Notes under the pieces: model-generated | Told to the model about the DNA's origin: nothing | What the model saw: only the letters and a program-made list of their open reading frames with translations | Databases searched by the model: none | Shown: piece by piece, positions 52,952-59,811 of the stretch | Numbering within the stretch: position 1 is the stretch's first letter | Layout of the letters: every line of letters starts with the position of its first letter | Position numbers and translations under genes: made by a program | Assembly (NCBI GenBank): GCA_003221515.1 | Contig: QHSI01000124.1 | Coordinates: 1 to 64,000 of the forward strand | DNA: 64,000 bases | DNA from: Candidatus Rokuibacteriota bacterium | GTDB lineage: Bacteria; Methylomirabilota; Methylomirabilia; Rokubacteriales; CSP1-6 | Direction of reading: 5' to 3'

Positions 52952-53950
52952 TCAGCGGTGGCCGTACTGCTTTTCGTAATACGCGCGGAACTCGCCGGAC
53001 TTGAGCGGGCGCCACCACGTCTCGTGCTCGCGATACCAGGCGACGGTCGTCGCGAGCGCGTCGGGGAACCGATGGCGCGGCGTCCAGCCGAGCTGGCGGA
53101 CCTTCTTCGAGTCGAGCGAATAGCGCCGGTCGTGGCCGGGCCGATCCTTCACGGGCTTGATCAAGCTCTCGGGCTTGCCGGTGAGCTGGAGGATCTGGCG
53201 CGTGAGCACGACGTTCTCGACCTCGTGGCCGCCGCCGATGTTGTAGACCTCGCCCTCGCCGCCCTTGCGCAGCACCAGGTCGATGGCGGCGCAATTGTCC
53301 AGGACGTAGAGCCAGTCGCGCACGTTCTTGCCGTCGCCGTAGAGCGGCAGCAGCTGATCGTCGAGCGCGTTGGTCACGAACAGCGGGATCACCTTCTCCG
53401 GGTACTGAGAGGGCCCGAAGTTGTTGGACGAGCGCGTGATCAGCACCGGCAGCCGATGGGTCTGCCAGTAGGCCAGCGCCAGCAGGTCGCCGCCGGCCTT
53501 GGACGCCGAGTACGGGTTGGACGGGCGGAGTGGATCGATCTCGCGCGACGAGCCGCGCGCGACGGATCCGTACACCTCGTCGGTGCTGATATGGAGGAGC
53601 CGCGGAATCTTCAGCTCCTTCACGGCCTCGAGCAGCGTGAACACGCCGAAGACGTCCGTGCGCAGGAACGCGTCGGGCTCGCTGAGCGACCGATCCACAT
53701 GGCTCTCGGCGGCGAAGTTGACGATCGCGTCGACGCCACGCGCTGCCTCACGCACGACCTTCGCGTCGCAGACGTCCCCCTGGACGAACGCGTAGCGTGG
53801 GTCGCGCTCGATGTCCGCCAGGTTGGCGGGGTTTCCCGCGTAGGTCAGCTTGTCGAGGTTGACGACGCGGTCGTCGGGATGCGTCGCGAGGACGTGGCGG
53901 ACGAAGTTGGAGCCGATGAACCCGCTGCCGCCCGTCACCAGCAGCTTCAC
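52952..53950 (-). CDS. rfbB: dTDP-glucose 4,6-dehydratase
   Basis: 332 residues from GTG or ATG 53950 region. NAD-binding MKLLVTGGSGFIGSNFVRHV, VNLDKLTYAGNPANLADIER, HISTDEVYGSVARGSSREID (active-site Thr-Asp-Glu), and the YxxxK pair in PSNPYSASKAGGDLLALAYW identify RmlB/RfbB. It converts dTDP-glucose to dTDP-4-keto-6-deoxyglucose. With rfbA and an epimerase it makes a dTDP-deoxysugar; the reductase rmlD is not in the window. Confidence 0.94.
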   Translation of the reverse strand: MKLLVTGGSGFIGSNFVRHVLATHPDDRVVNLDKLTYAGNPANLADIERDPRYAFVQGDVCDAKVVREAARGVDAIVNFAAESHVDRSLSEPDAFLRTDVFGVFTLLEAVKELKIPRLLHISTDEVYGSVARGSSREIDPLRPSNPYSASKAGGDLLALAYWQTHRLPVLITRSSNNFGPSQYPEKVIPLFVTNALDDQLLPLYGDGKNVRDWLYVLDNCAAIDLVLRKGGEGEVYNIGGGHEVENVVLTRQILQLTGKPESLIKPVKDRPGHDRRYSLDSKKVRQLGWTPRHRFPDALATTVAWYREHETWWRPLKSGEFRAYYEKQYGHR

Positions 53951-53953
53951 ACG

Positions 53954-54490
53954 CTACCCGCGGGTCACGTCCCAGATGTCGGCGCCCACGTAGTCCCACG
54001 GCAGCCGGCCCTCGTCGGAGGTGGCGGGCTCGGGCGAGAAATGGACGTCGGTGAAGTAGATGATGCGTCCGGGCGCCGCCGCGAGATTCCGCACGCCGTG
54101 GGCGACGCCGGGCGGGATGCGCACGAGCCGTGAGGCGCCGGCGCCGAGCGTGAGCCGCATGCGCGTGCCCTCGGTCTTCGACGCCTGGCGGACGTCGATC
54201 AGGACCAGCAGCATGCGGTCGGCCGGCGGGACGTACCAGACGTCGGACTGGCGCTGGTGGACGTGAAACGCCTTGATCACGCCGGGCTCGACTTCGCTGT
54301 AGTTGATCTGGCGAACCGCGAATCCCACGAATGCCTGCGGAAGCCCGTCGGTCAGGCGCGCCAGCTCGGTCATGCTCCCGCCGTCGTCGGCGAACCGCTT
54401 GAGCTCGATGAGCTCGACGCCGTCGATTCTGGGAATCGGGCTGTAGGACTGCGTCTGGAAGGCGCGCTTGGCGTGAGGCGTCAGATCCAT
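53954..54490 (-). CDS. dTDP-4-dehydrorhamnose 3,5-epimerase-like cupin
   Basis: 178 residues from ATG 54490. Cupin fold: IDGVELIELKRFADDGGSMT, VRQINYSEVEPGVIKAFHVH, QRQSDVWYVPPADRMLLVLI and LVRIPPGVAHGVRNLAAAPG. The catalytic His-Asp region of RfbC is visible in FHVHQRQSDVWYV, though it is divergent from classic RmlC (which has RGLHYQ). Sitting between rfbA and rfbB, it likely epimerises or isomerises dTDP-4-keto-6-deoxyglucose. It may be an FdtA-like or epimerase-type enzyme. Confidence 0.82.
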   Translation of the reverse strand: MDLTPHAKRAFQTQSYSPIPRIDGVELIELKRFADDGGSMTELARLTDGLPQAFVGFAVRQINYSEVEPGVIKAFHVHQRQSDVWYVPPADRMLLVLIDVRQASKTEGTRMRLTLGAGASRLVRIPPGVAHGVRNLAAAPGRIIYFTDVHFSPEPATSDEGRLPWDYVGADIWDVTRG

Positions 54491-54504
54491 CGGGTGCCTC
54501 GATC

Positions 54505-55389
54505 TTACGGCTCGGGCTCGATCAGGCGCAACAGATACTGCCCGTACGAGTTGTCCTTCATCGGCCGGGCGATGCGGAGCACGTCGTCGCCGGTGATGTA
54601 GCCCATCCGGTAGGCGATCTCCTCGACGCACGCCACCATGAGCCCCTGCCGTTCCTCGATCGTGTGAATGAAGGTGGAGGCCTGCAGGAGCGCCTCGTGG
54701 GTGCCCGTGTCGAGCCACGCGATGCCGCGGCCCAGCTTCTCGACGTGCAGCTGGTCACGGCGCAGATACGCCGCGTTCACGTCCGTGATCTCGAGCTCGC
54801 CGCGCGCCGAGGGCTTCAGCGCCCCCGCGATGTCGAGAACCTGGTTGTCGTAAAAGTAGAGGCCCGTCACCGCATACGGCGAGCGCGGCTTGGCCGGCTT
54901 CTCCTCGAGCCCGATCGCACGTCCGTCGGGGCCGAACTCGACGACGCCGTAGCGCTCGGGATCGCGCACCCAGTAGGCGAAGACCGTGGCGCCCGTCGCG
55001 CGGTCCGCGGCGTGCTTGAGGTACTCGGGCAGCCCGTGGCCGTAGAAGACGTTGTCGCCGAGCGCGAGCGCGACGCGGTCCCCTCCGACGAAGCGGCGCC
55101 CGATGATGAAGGCCTGGGCCAGGCCCTCGGGGCGCGGCTGGGCCGCGTAGTCGATGGTGAGGCCCAGGTGGCGGCCGTCGCCGAGCAGCCGATGGTAGGA
55201 CTCGATGTCCTGGGGGGTCGTGATGAGCAGAACCCTGGTGATACCCGACAGCATCAGTGTAGACAGGGGGTAGTACACCATCGGCTTGTTGTAGATCGCC
55301 ATCAGCTGCTTGCTCACGGCGTGGGTCAGCGGGTAGAGCCTGGTGCCTGATCCCCCCGCGAGAATGATTCCCTTGATGGAATTCGGCAT
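54505..55389 (-). CDS. rfbA: glucose-1-phosphate thymidylyltransferase
   Basis: 294 residues from ATG 55389, the standard RmlA length. [60 protein letters not shown] and IEEKP-type [20 protein letters not shown], and [20 protein letters not shown]. It couples dTTP and glucose-1-phosphate to dTDP-glucose and pyrophosphate. An extended -10 box (TGCTATACT) lies 11 bases upstream; it starts the rfbA-rfbC-rfbB-HtrA-like unit. Confidence 0.95.
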
Positions 55390-55400
55390 GGATTTTTGCA

Positions 55401-55409
55401 AGTATAGCA
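55401..55409 (-). promoter_or_regulatory. extended -10 promoter of rfbA
   Basis: TGCTATACT on the minus strand, ending 11 bases before ATG 55389. The leader would be only about four to five bases. No ribosome site. Confidence 0.5.
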
Positions 55410-55471
55410 ACCGCGTCCGGGCCCGGCGAAGCGTTGCCATCGCATCACCGTCGAGCCGACCGGAAATGGGG

Positions 55472-55484: not shown

Positions 55485-56711
55485 ATGAAGACGTTGAAGG
55501 AGATGCTCGCCGAGGCGCGGCAGGTCGTGCCCGAAGCGGGCCCGGCCGAACTCGCCGAGCGCCTCGCGGCGGGGGAGAAGCTGGCCGTCATCGACGTGCG
55601 TGACCCCGACGAGTTCCGCGACGGCCATCTGGAAGTCGCGACGAACATCAGCCGCGGCTTTCTCGAGTTCCGGGTGGGCACCGCGGTCACGGATCCGTCG
55701 ACGCCGATCGTCCTCTACTGCCAGACCGGCCTCAGGTCGATGCTGGCCGCGAAGGCACTCAAGGACCTGGGCTACGGGACGGTCATCAACCTGCAGGGCG
55801 GCTATCAGAAGTGGGTGCAGTCCGGTTTGCCGACCGTCAAGGAAGTTCCGCTGACGACCGACCAGATCCAGCGCTACAGCCGCCACTTCCTGCTGCCGCA
55901 GGTGGGCGACAAGGGTCAGCGAAAGCTGTTGCGCTCCAAGGTGCTGCTGATCGGCGCCGGCGGTCTCGGATCGCCCACGGCCCTGTACCTGGCTGCGGCG
56001 GGCGTGGGAACGCTCGGCCTGATGGACGGCGACACCGTCGACATCACGAACTTACAACGGCAGATTCTTCACACCACGGCGGACATCGGCAAGCCCAAGG
56101 TCGAGTCCGGTACCCGGACCCTCAAGGCGCTCAACCCCGACGTCAACGTGATCCCGCTGCCGACACGCATCACCGTCGACAACGTCATGGACACCATCAA
56201 GGGTTACGACCTCGTCGTCGACGGCTCGGACAACTTCGAGACGCGCTATCTCGTGAACGACGCCTGCTACCTGGCCGGCAAGACCAACGTCCACGGCTCG
56301 ATCTTCCAGTTCGAGGGAATGGCGACGGTCTTCGCGCCCGGCCAAGGCCCCTGCTACCGCTGCCTCTACCCGACGCCGCCGCCGCCCGGCCTCGTCCCGT
56401 CCTGAAGCGAAGCTGGCGTCCTGGGCGTGCTCCCAGGAGTGGTTGGAACGGTGCAGGCGACGGAGACCGTCAAGCTGCTGCTCGGCATCGGTGAGCCGCT
56501 GATCGGCCGCCTCCTCACCTACGACGCGCTCGGCATGCGCTTCCGCGAGGTCAGGCTACGGCGGGATCCCAAGTGCCCGCTCTGCGGGAGTGCCCCATCG
56601 ATCAAGGATCTGACGATCCATCGGAACGGCGCGGTCGGGACCTGCGAGACATCGCCGGACGGGCACGGTGAGGGCGTGGCCGCCGGGGTCGCACCCAACG
56701 CTGGCGGCTGA
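55485..56711 (+). CDS. moeB: rhodanese-MoeB/ThiF protein with in-frame TGA (probable selenocysteine)
   Basis: If TGA 56403-56405 is read, one 408-residue protein results. Residues 20-118: rhodanese domain with active-site Cys79 in LYCQTGLRSMLAAKALK. Residues 122-370: MoeB/ThiF adenylation domain with ATP loop VLLIGAGGLGSPTALYLAAA, R-finger NLQRQILH, VVDGSDNFETRYLVNDACYL, and zinc cysteines C290/C293 (CYRC) and C364/C367 (CPLC). The TGA is codon 307, exactly where E. coli MoeB has Cys187 (family PSCAEAGVLG). The frame continues without break as SEAGVLGVLPGVVGTVQATE. A 7-bp hairpin suitable as a bacterial SECIS follows. It would adenylate and thiolate the C-terminus of a sulfur-carrier protein (MoaD/ThiS-type), with the rhodanese domain supplying sulfur, as in MOCS3/Uba4. 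Confidence 0.88.
56403..56438 (+). promoter_or_regulatory. candidate bacterial SECIS element
   Basis: TGA (56403-56405), 13 bases, then stem TCCTGGG (56419-56425), loop CGTGCT (56426-56431) and stem CCCAGGA (56432-56438), seven perfect pairs. The apical loop begins 20 bases after TGA and has G as its second base, in line with the published bacterial SECIS rules (loop 16-37 nt after UGA, G in the first two loop bases). Confidence 0.7.
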
Positions 56712-59292: not shown

Positions 59293-59811
59293 CTATCGAC
59301 TGACTTCGCGGATGAGGTGGGGCAGCTCCGGAATGAGGAGCTTCTCGAGCGCGAGACGGCACGCGTTCGGCGAGCCCGGCAAGGAAACGATGATGCGCCG
59401 CGCGTGAATGCCCAGCTGTGCTCGCGAGAGCATCGCGGCCGCCCCGACCTCCTGATAGGAGAGCATCCGGAATAGCTCGCCGAAGCCCGGCAGGCGCTTG
59501 TCGAGCAACGCCTCGATCGCCTCGTAGGTCGAGTCACGCGACGTGATGCCGGTGCCACCGGTGGCGATCACCGCCTGCACCGACGCCGTCGCGCACGCCT
59601 CGCGGATCACCCGCTGGACGTCCTTCGGCTCGTCGCGGACGATCGTCGAGCCGATCACCTGATGCCCCGCCTCGAGCAGGAGCGTGCGGATGAGCGCGCC
59701 GCTCGTATCGGTCTCGGGCGTCTTGGTGTCCGAGACCGTGAGGACCCAGCAGCCGATCGTGCGCGGCGCGGTGGCCTTGTGCTCGAGCGGGGTGCTGTCG
59801 GGCGCCGTCAT
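59293..59811 (-). CDS. moaB: molybdenum cofactor biosynthesis protein B
   Basis: 172 residues from ATG 59811, overlapping the GlcF stop (ATGA). IGCWVLTVSDTKTPETDTSG, VRDEPKDVQRVIREACA, AVIATGGTGITSRDSTYEAI and LSRAQLGIHARRIIVSLPGS, PNACRLALEKLLIPELPHL are the MoaB/MogA fold with its molybdopterin-binding loop. It adenylates molybdopterin before metal insertion. It ends the glcD-glcE-glcF unit, an unusual companion. Confidence 0.93.
   Translation of the reverse strand: MTAPDSTPLEHKATAPRTIGCWVLTVSDTKTPETDTSGALIRTLLLEAGHQVIGSTIVRDEPKDVQRVIREACATASVQAVIATGGTGITSRDSTYEAIEALLDKRLPGFGELFRMLSYQEVGAAAMLSRAQLGIHARRIIVSLPGSPNACRLALEKLLIPELPHLIREVSR

Follow-up and report, generated by a model that had tools for sequence, protein, structure and literature searches.

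Selenoproteins of the MoeB family have been predicted since 2005, and the gene described here is a further member in an unusually central role. As the original prediction noted, MoeB-like selenoproteins were predicted earlier from metagenomes, with 11 sequences from the Sargasso Sea in 2005 (PMC1088965) and 19 from the GOS in 2008 (PMC2398784), and they are listed in reviews (PMC9312934; PMC13188914, 2026). Like the present gene, the described family has a TGA at a conserved MoeB cysteine, a bacterial SECIS element and widespread Cys forms, whereas the portions of these sources available to us mention neither Rokubacteria nor a rhodanese fusion, nor any setting in which the selenoprotein is the sole enzyme. 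Judged from these text descriptions, the MoeB selenoproteins of 2005-2008 likely carry selenocysteine (Sec) at the same residue. PMC13188914 also cites a MAG of Methylomirabilota for which 63 selenoproteins were predicted, and the present form may be among them. In the available text of the literature on MoeB/E1-like selenoproteins and on selenocysteine in Rokubacteria and Methylomirabilota, no report of the present case was found.

Rhodanese-MoeB proteins of the PRK08762 type (NF006444) have the same layout as the present protein, with an N-terminal rhodanese and a C-terminal MoeB part; the present protein scores above the family cut-off and differs in having Sec instead of the crossover-loop cysteine. 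Uba4 and MOCS3 also unite an E1 and a rhodanese in one chain, with the catalytic cysteine at the equivalent position, but their rhodanese is C-terminal and the residue is Cys, not Sec. MoeZ is presumably a further single-chain relative of this kind. Similarly, E. coli ThiF and MoeB share the adenylation fold but have no fused rhodanese and carry Cys instead of Sec. In the rhodanese-like selenoproteins, as the accessible part of PMC13188914 describes them, Sec is located in the rhodanese active site, as in two relatives discussed below (L190 and L195), whereas the present protein has Cys at that residue and Sec in the E1 domain.

Structure of the locus

The whole stretch of 64,000 nucleotides that was analysed is called the window. 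It comes from a genome of the uncultured Rokubacteria, with 5.1 Mb in 191 contigs and a completeness of 95.4%. The features of the gene, in window positions, are as follows.

55485..56711, + strand: rhodanese-MoeB selenoprotein gene (predicted), 408 codons plus the TGA stop; NCBIfam NF006444
55542..55820, + strand: rhodanese domain, residues 20-112; Pfam PF00581, 68.7 bits
55719..55721, + strand: TGC codon of Cys79 in the rhodanese loop CQTGLRS; from frame translation and alignment of the homologous rows
55875..56579, + strand: ThiF/MoeB adenylation domain, residues 131-365; Pfam PF00899, 285.1 bits
56352..56363, + strand: C290-x-x-C293, both columns invariant (n=22 sequences); we take it to be the first half of the MoeB zinc site
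56403..56405, + strand: TGA at codon 307, the crossover-loop catalytic position, predicted from cross-genome comparison to be read as selenocysteine
56419..56438, + strand: putative SECIS hairpin, stem TCCTGGG/CCCAGGA, loop CGTGCT; from conservation and geometry
56574..56585, + strand: C364-x-x-C367, both columns invariant (n=22 sequences); presumably the second half of the MoeB zinc site
56709..56711, + strand: terminal TGA, the true stop of the rhodanese-MoeB gene; from frame translation

The best NCBIfam match is NF006444 (molybdopterin-synthase adenylyltransferase MoeB), with a score of 520.6 against a cut-off of 449, and the closest homologues are titled Rokubacteria, with a top identity of 93%. 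The PF00899 domain together with the conserved adenylation and zinc residues places the protein in the ThiF family; the rhodanese (residues 20-112) precedes the ThiF domain, which places the protein outside the Uba4/MOCS3 group with its C-terminal rhodanese. Residues R130, N189, R192, Q193, K205, D246, C290, C293, C364 and C367 were invariant in the comparison of 22 sequences (a column set without L073, L074, L076 and L080), and those from R130 to D246 are, we assume, the conserved adenylation residues of the ThiF family. The AlphaFold model of the protein had a mean pLDDT of 82.8, and its fold was nearest to ThiF, MoeB and Uba4 in the structure comparison, with TM-scores by target of 0.93-0.95 in the best seven matches. 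The modelled loop 308-310 had a pLDDT below 50, which agrees with the disorder that the available text of PMC7527816 describes for the crossover loop of apo Uba4.

The search of the window with Rfam gave no family above the gathering score, and the search of a phage collection gave no match. A MoaB/MogA-type molybdenum cofactor gene (59293-59811, - strand; models over cut-off) is located 2.6 kb 3' of the MoeB gene, and rmlA and a dTDP-glucose 4,6-dehydratase gene lie upstream of it on the opposite strand (52952-55440, - strand).

The TGA at codon 307 and its distribution

Translation of the frame 55485-56711 gave a single interruption, the TGA at 56403-56405, as originally reported. This codon aligns with residue 187 of E. 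coli MoeB (counted on the alignment with 1jw9_B), also as stated before, and in the comparison with solved structures it coincides with the cysteine that ThiF and Uba4 have in that motif; Cys occupies the position in each of the four PDB relatives listed. The homologue alignment that had been proposed as a check gave TGA or Cys throughout the 98 distinct homologues parsed (identical rows counted once; L045 and L150 are truncated sequences, and L173 was fetched but left out of the parsing). In the relatives checked, the TGA is kept and the frame stays open beyond it, and every parsed homologue without TGA (42/42) has TGC or TGT there. The first set of homologues included 42 loci with Rokubacteria or Methylomirabilota in their titles; 40 of them had TGA and the other two TGC.

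The TGA form was found in 58 of the 95 genomes of the phylum, with the codon position confirmed in the fetched locus for all 58: 51/57 in the own family of the window genome, 3/3 in the same order outside that family and 4/4 in the family f7 (the tallies over genomes of the TGA form, SelB and tRNA-Sec were counted by hand). A further 31 of the 95 had no TGA in the strongest ThiF match. Of these 31, G007 had no ThiF match at all, G004 had a weak match only, and G013 had a weak second ThiF match that contained a TGA. The gene was not found in six genomes of the own family (G039, G055, G057, G068, G081 and G083). In one of these six, G039, no ThiF protein was found, although SelB and tRNA-Sec are present and the genome is rated 100% complete; G055 and G057 showed no MoeB, SelB or tRNA-Sec over cut-off. 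Because the TGA is present in many separate genomes, a sequencing error at codon 307 is very unlikely. The Sec rows are mutually related, and the counts of TGA and hairpin are hence not independent events.

The SECIS hairpin

The hairpin was recovered exactly as predicted, with a stem at 56419-56425/56432-56438 in which 7/7 pairs are Watson-Crick, the loop CGTGCT at 56426-56431 with G in the second place, 13 nt between the TGA and the stem and 20 nt between the TGA and the loop. The bacterial SECIS rules, as quoted in the available text of PMC13188914, ask for a loop of 3-9 nt with G in the first two positions, a stem of 4-16 bp, a spacing of 16-37 nt and an MFE at or below -7.5, and the hairpin agrees with them: its loop has 6 nt with G in the second place, its stem has 7 bp, the spacing is 20 nt and the MFE lies between -11.1 and -13.1 kcal/mol.

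The hairpin taken by itself, one of the points listed in the original prediction, did not hold as evidence, its stability being no better than chance. The MFE of 56403-56450 had a z of -0.06 against shuffles, and over four windows of folding the values were -0.06, 1.34, -0.17 and 0.37, so hairpin stability was rejected as an argument; the bare 25-nt hairpin alone, unlike these windows, gave -2.03. The stretch 56395-56445, named earlier for a SECIS search, folds differently. When codons were shuffled with the peptide preserved, the stem length was reached in about one third of cases, and some stem of at least 6 bp was present in 22 of the 42 Cys homologues. Hairpins form easily here because the peptide VLGVLPGV is encoded by GC-rich codons.

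Judged from these alignments, it is conservation and not hairpin stability that exceeds chance. Codons 312-317 (GTC CTG GGC GTG CTC CCA) were invariant in all 49 distinct Sec sequences of a set made up of the own family and Rokubacteria-titled loci (one titled Methylomirabilota), from which the seven Sec rows of f2-f4 and f7 were excluded. Among the 140 four- or sixfold degenerate codons of the gene whose amino acid is conserved, these were the only invariant ones and formed one block; the mean codon identity outside it was 0.675 in the same 49 sequences. In the Cys homologues (n=42), 3 to 5 different codons occurred at each of these places. At a fixed position, 67/67 Sec rows have a 6-bp hairpin with an MFE at or below -7.5 and G in the first two places of the loop, which is 6 nt long in 54 rows and 7 nt in 13; among the Cys rows the fixed-position pairs occurred in 13/42 and all three hairpin criteria in 8/42. 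Among rows that share a single stem register, the outermost pair was C-G in nine and G-C in four, which amounts to one compensatory change. In the window, 2 of the 1340 TGA triplets were followed by 7/7 pairs in the same geometry with the loop G (mean 0.25 and maximum 3 in 20 shuffles), and of these two only the TGA of codon 307 lies in a frame open on both sides.

Selenocysteine machinery

The original prediction called for selA, selB, selC and selD elsewhere in the genome, and all were found, each over its cut-off. The genes selC (69.8 bits), selA and selB are located together on contig C184, and selD, with an internal TGA, is on contig C150 (L090, G000:C150:27763-28707). The SelD of this genome is itself a selenoprotein, with the motif CAGU. 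The selD hairpin has the same distance from its TGA and the same stem and loop lengths as the MoeB hairpin; between the two stems, 4/7 pairs are changed on both sides and all are still Watson-Crick.

SelB was present in 52 of the 58 TGA genomes (partial and below cut-off in G047); if a tRNA-Sec above the gathering score is accepted in place of a missing SelB, the number rises to 54. Neither was found over cut-off in G060, G076, G077 and G087, two of which are 95-100% complete. Since the invariant codon block is intact in all four genomes, and selC, selA and selB are co-located in the window genome, we tentatively read this gap as a missing contig. Of the 31 phylum genomes that lack the TGA form, 28 also have SelB, and the capacity to decode Sec therefore does not force MoeB to be a selenoprotein.

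The only ThiF protein found, beside seven sulfur carriers

In the 95.4%-complete genome of the window, the rhodanese-MoeB was the one ThiF-family protein over the cut-off; a second match, on contig C10, scored 22.1, below the cut-off of 28.1. The same genome has seven carriers of the Pfam ThiS family over cut-off, and in every one of them a GG lies at the carrier domain's end or close to it. Because only two of them pass an NCBIfam cut-off, namely the ThiS-like carrier and the one adjacent to thrC, the finer names of the carriers are tentative. Neighbouring genes and fusions suggest their roles. The ThiS-like carrier adjoins ThiG, one carrier adjoins thrC, and one MoaD-like carrier is located after a xanthine-dehydrogenase-like gene. 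A SAMP1-like carrier (L137:1474-1773) adjoins cysK and has residues after its GG, and it might need trimming before activation. A further sequence (L136:1075-1743), with matches below the NCBIfam cut-offs, is by its domain matches likely a MoaD-MoaE fusion; because its carrier GG is internal, a cleavage step or a different route of sulfur transfer would be required. The MoaD-like carrier L138:1486-1755 (G000:C184) has a tail after the GG and precedes selC by about 1.4 kb on the contig that carries selC, selA and selB.

The TGA protein was the only ThiF-domain protein (E up to 1e-15) in 46 of the 57 family genomes. Four others (G051, G064, G079 and G090) have the TGA protein and only weaker ThiF relatives, and the bin AR27 is the remaining family genome with the TGA protein, there beside two pieces of a Cys version. 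The rhodanese-MoeB is thus likely the sole carrier activator, within the bounds set by MAG incompleteness. A Sec form that is the only ThiF-domain protein found over cut-off in its genome, there beside seven carriers, and that recurs through the lineage, mostly with no Cys copy detected next to it, is apparently new.

A probable Cys reversion and relatives outside the phylum

The bin AR27 (7.2 Mb, 9% contamination) contains the TGA gene and two pieces of a Cys version at contig ends, L042 and L044. Both are placed within a starred set of the tree, composed of 52 Sec and 2 Cys rows; their deeper nesting had support of 90-94 and was unstarred. As they are nested among Sec rows, L042 and L044 likely represent a Sec-to-Cys reversion on the sequence evidence. 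Four of the six otherwise invariant codons are changed in L042 and three in L044, and the decay of the SECIS element is only partial in the latter, because 5/6 stem pairs (read by eye) are still kept. At least three Sec/Cys changes were needed on the quick tree.

A degenerate TGA-MoeB pattern matched 11 of 395 genomes in the phylum around a Geobacter-titled locus, and the pattern fixes part of the motif and could favour hairpin-forming sequences; the reversed control pattern had no match in the 395 genomes. All 11 rows encode rhodanese-MoeB proteins that share 48-61% identity with the one of the window.

The rhodanese active site had Cys in 68 and TGA in two of the 70 distinct rhodanese-MoeB rows. 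One of the two, L190 (G138:C67), belongs to the 11 rows from outside the phylum and carries TGAs at 817-819 (rhodanese Cys) and 1501-1503 (MoeB crossover Cys) in one chain, each followed by a hairpin with the loop CGUGCU. The other, L195 (G082:C272, minus strand, base 1340 of the reverse complement), carries its TGA in place of the rhodanese Cys (UQTGLRS) and is a piece of a second rhodanese-MoeB of the Rokubacterium G082; its contig ends at about residue 131, before the E1 half, and the same genome carries a full rhodanese-MoeB copy with Cys at the rhodanese site. Both rhodanese TGAs have a 6-bp stem in the same place, with the loop 17 nt away and G in its first two positions, and their outer pairs differ, one being G-C and the other C-G. 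The six pairs occurred in none of the 68 Cys rows used as control; the agreement of L190 and L195 is by construction, because the geometry was read from them. The fold energy of L195 was not better than that of shuffles (z 0.98). Two other candidates for a TGA at this site were rejected, L197 with Cys at the site and L198 with no rhodanese motif in the scan. As a pattern in sequence, the presence in two relatives of a TGA at the catalytic cysteine of the rhodanese, followed by a separate hairpin, is apparently new.

Proposed mechanism and alternative explanations

Read from the sequence comparisons, Sec incorporation at codon 307 appears close to certain. The TGA might instead be a true stop, with the downstream part re-initiated separately, for which an in-frame GTG at 56427 and a 94-aa ORF from there would be at hand, or decaying as a pseudogene. 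This is extremely unlikely, as the residues after the TGA are highly conserved while synonymous variation is free outside the hairpin, the TGA is retained in 58 genomes, and a product of 306 residues would be without the second zinc Cys pair. The GTG concerned (codon 315) is GTC in four f7 rows and GTT in 9 of the 11 outside-phylum rows, although other in-frame GTGs lie near codon 315 in those rows. A genome-wide reassignment of TGA to an ordinary amino acid would also leave the frame open, but it is hardly conceivable: the same gene terminates in TGA, tRNA-Sec, SelA, SelB and SelD are all present, and the 42 parsed non-TGA homologues all have Cys at the place, as expected for Sec.

The best explanation overall, and a very probable one, is a selenoprotein composed of a rhodanese and a MoeB/ThiF-type E1, with Sec307 taking part in sulfur transfer to carriers. 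Of the original prediction of a Sec enzyme for sulfur transfer, the identity of the residue as Sec gained support from the conserved TGA and the machinery; its chemistry with Cys79 is what we infer. The acyl-disulfide that had been taken as known at the equivalent cysteine is less settled than claimed. In the available text of the literature, the crossover-loop cysteine of Uba4 forms a thioester with Urm1 and guards against self-conjugation under oxidation (PMC7527816), C239 of MOCS3 is said to cleave the disulfide between carrier and rhodanese (PMC5372717), and according to a 2026 review (PMC12954526) the Uba4 thioester promotes the reaction but is not essential for thiocarboxylation, and ThiF and MoeB form no thioester. 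Since these published roles differ, Sec307 is proposed as an acyl-accepting and/or resolving nucleophile; because the Uba4 cysteine promotes the reaction and is not essential, the catalytic role of Sec307 may not be a dominant one.

In the mechanism proposed, the enzyme would adenylate the C-terminal GG of ThiS-, MoaD- and SAMP/CysO-like carriers, and the rhodanese Cys79 would bear a persulfide and form an acyl-disulfide with the carrier. As to its exact chemical step, Sec307 would presumably accept the activated carrier as a selenoester and/or resolve the acyl-disulfide. The thiocarboxylated carrier would be released and a Cys79-Sec307 selenenylsulfide left behind, which cellular thiols would reduce. 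Selenium could make the step faster and its reversal after oxidation easier, and this advantage may matter because one enzyme would serve every carrier.

Sec307 could also be translated and yet act in protection or as a redox switch rather than as a catalyst of sulfur transfer. The shielding from self-conjugation under oxidative stress and the dispensability for product formation reported for the Uba4 cysteine would fit such a role; the occurrence of Cys or Sec in 98/98 distinct homologues parsed and the covalent intermediate formed at the Uba4 cysteine (available text of PMC7527816) speak against it, and we consider it rather unlikely. That the rhodanese-MoeB also mobilises selenium, delivering selenide to SelD, and not sulfur only, is suggested by nothing but its association with the Sec machinery and the position of the MoaD-like carrier gene 1.4 kb before selC on C184; no selenium-specific partner was seen, the NF006444 family is annotated as a sulfur-carrier activator, and this function is very unlikely.

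Implications

We lean slightly towards a joint reading in which one obligate selenoenzyme without a Cys back-up activates every sulfur carrier in Rokubacteria, with a di-selenium sulfur relay in some relatives. This reading covers thiamine, the molybdenum cofactor, cysteine and possibly tRNA thiolation, so that core sulfur metabolism would be selenium-dependent; among the relatives, L190 would have Sec at both catalytic positions and L195 at the rhodanese site. Sec is unusual in an enzyme of the E1 type, as the majority of predicted selenoproteins are similar to thiol redox enzymes (PMC9312934, in the text available). Gene finders that treat TGA as a stop would cut the protein at residue 306. 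The Sec, Cys and reverted forms found among close relatives offer a natural test of what the crossover-loop cysteine does in MoeB, MOCS3 and Uba4, which is debated. If the apparently only sulfur-carrier activator of the lineage is a selenoprotein, the synthesis of thiamine, molybdopterin and cysteine would be tied to the selenium supply, which could help to explain the retention of Sec decoding in this lineage.
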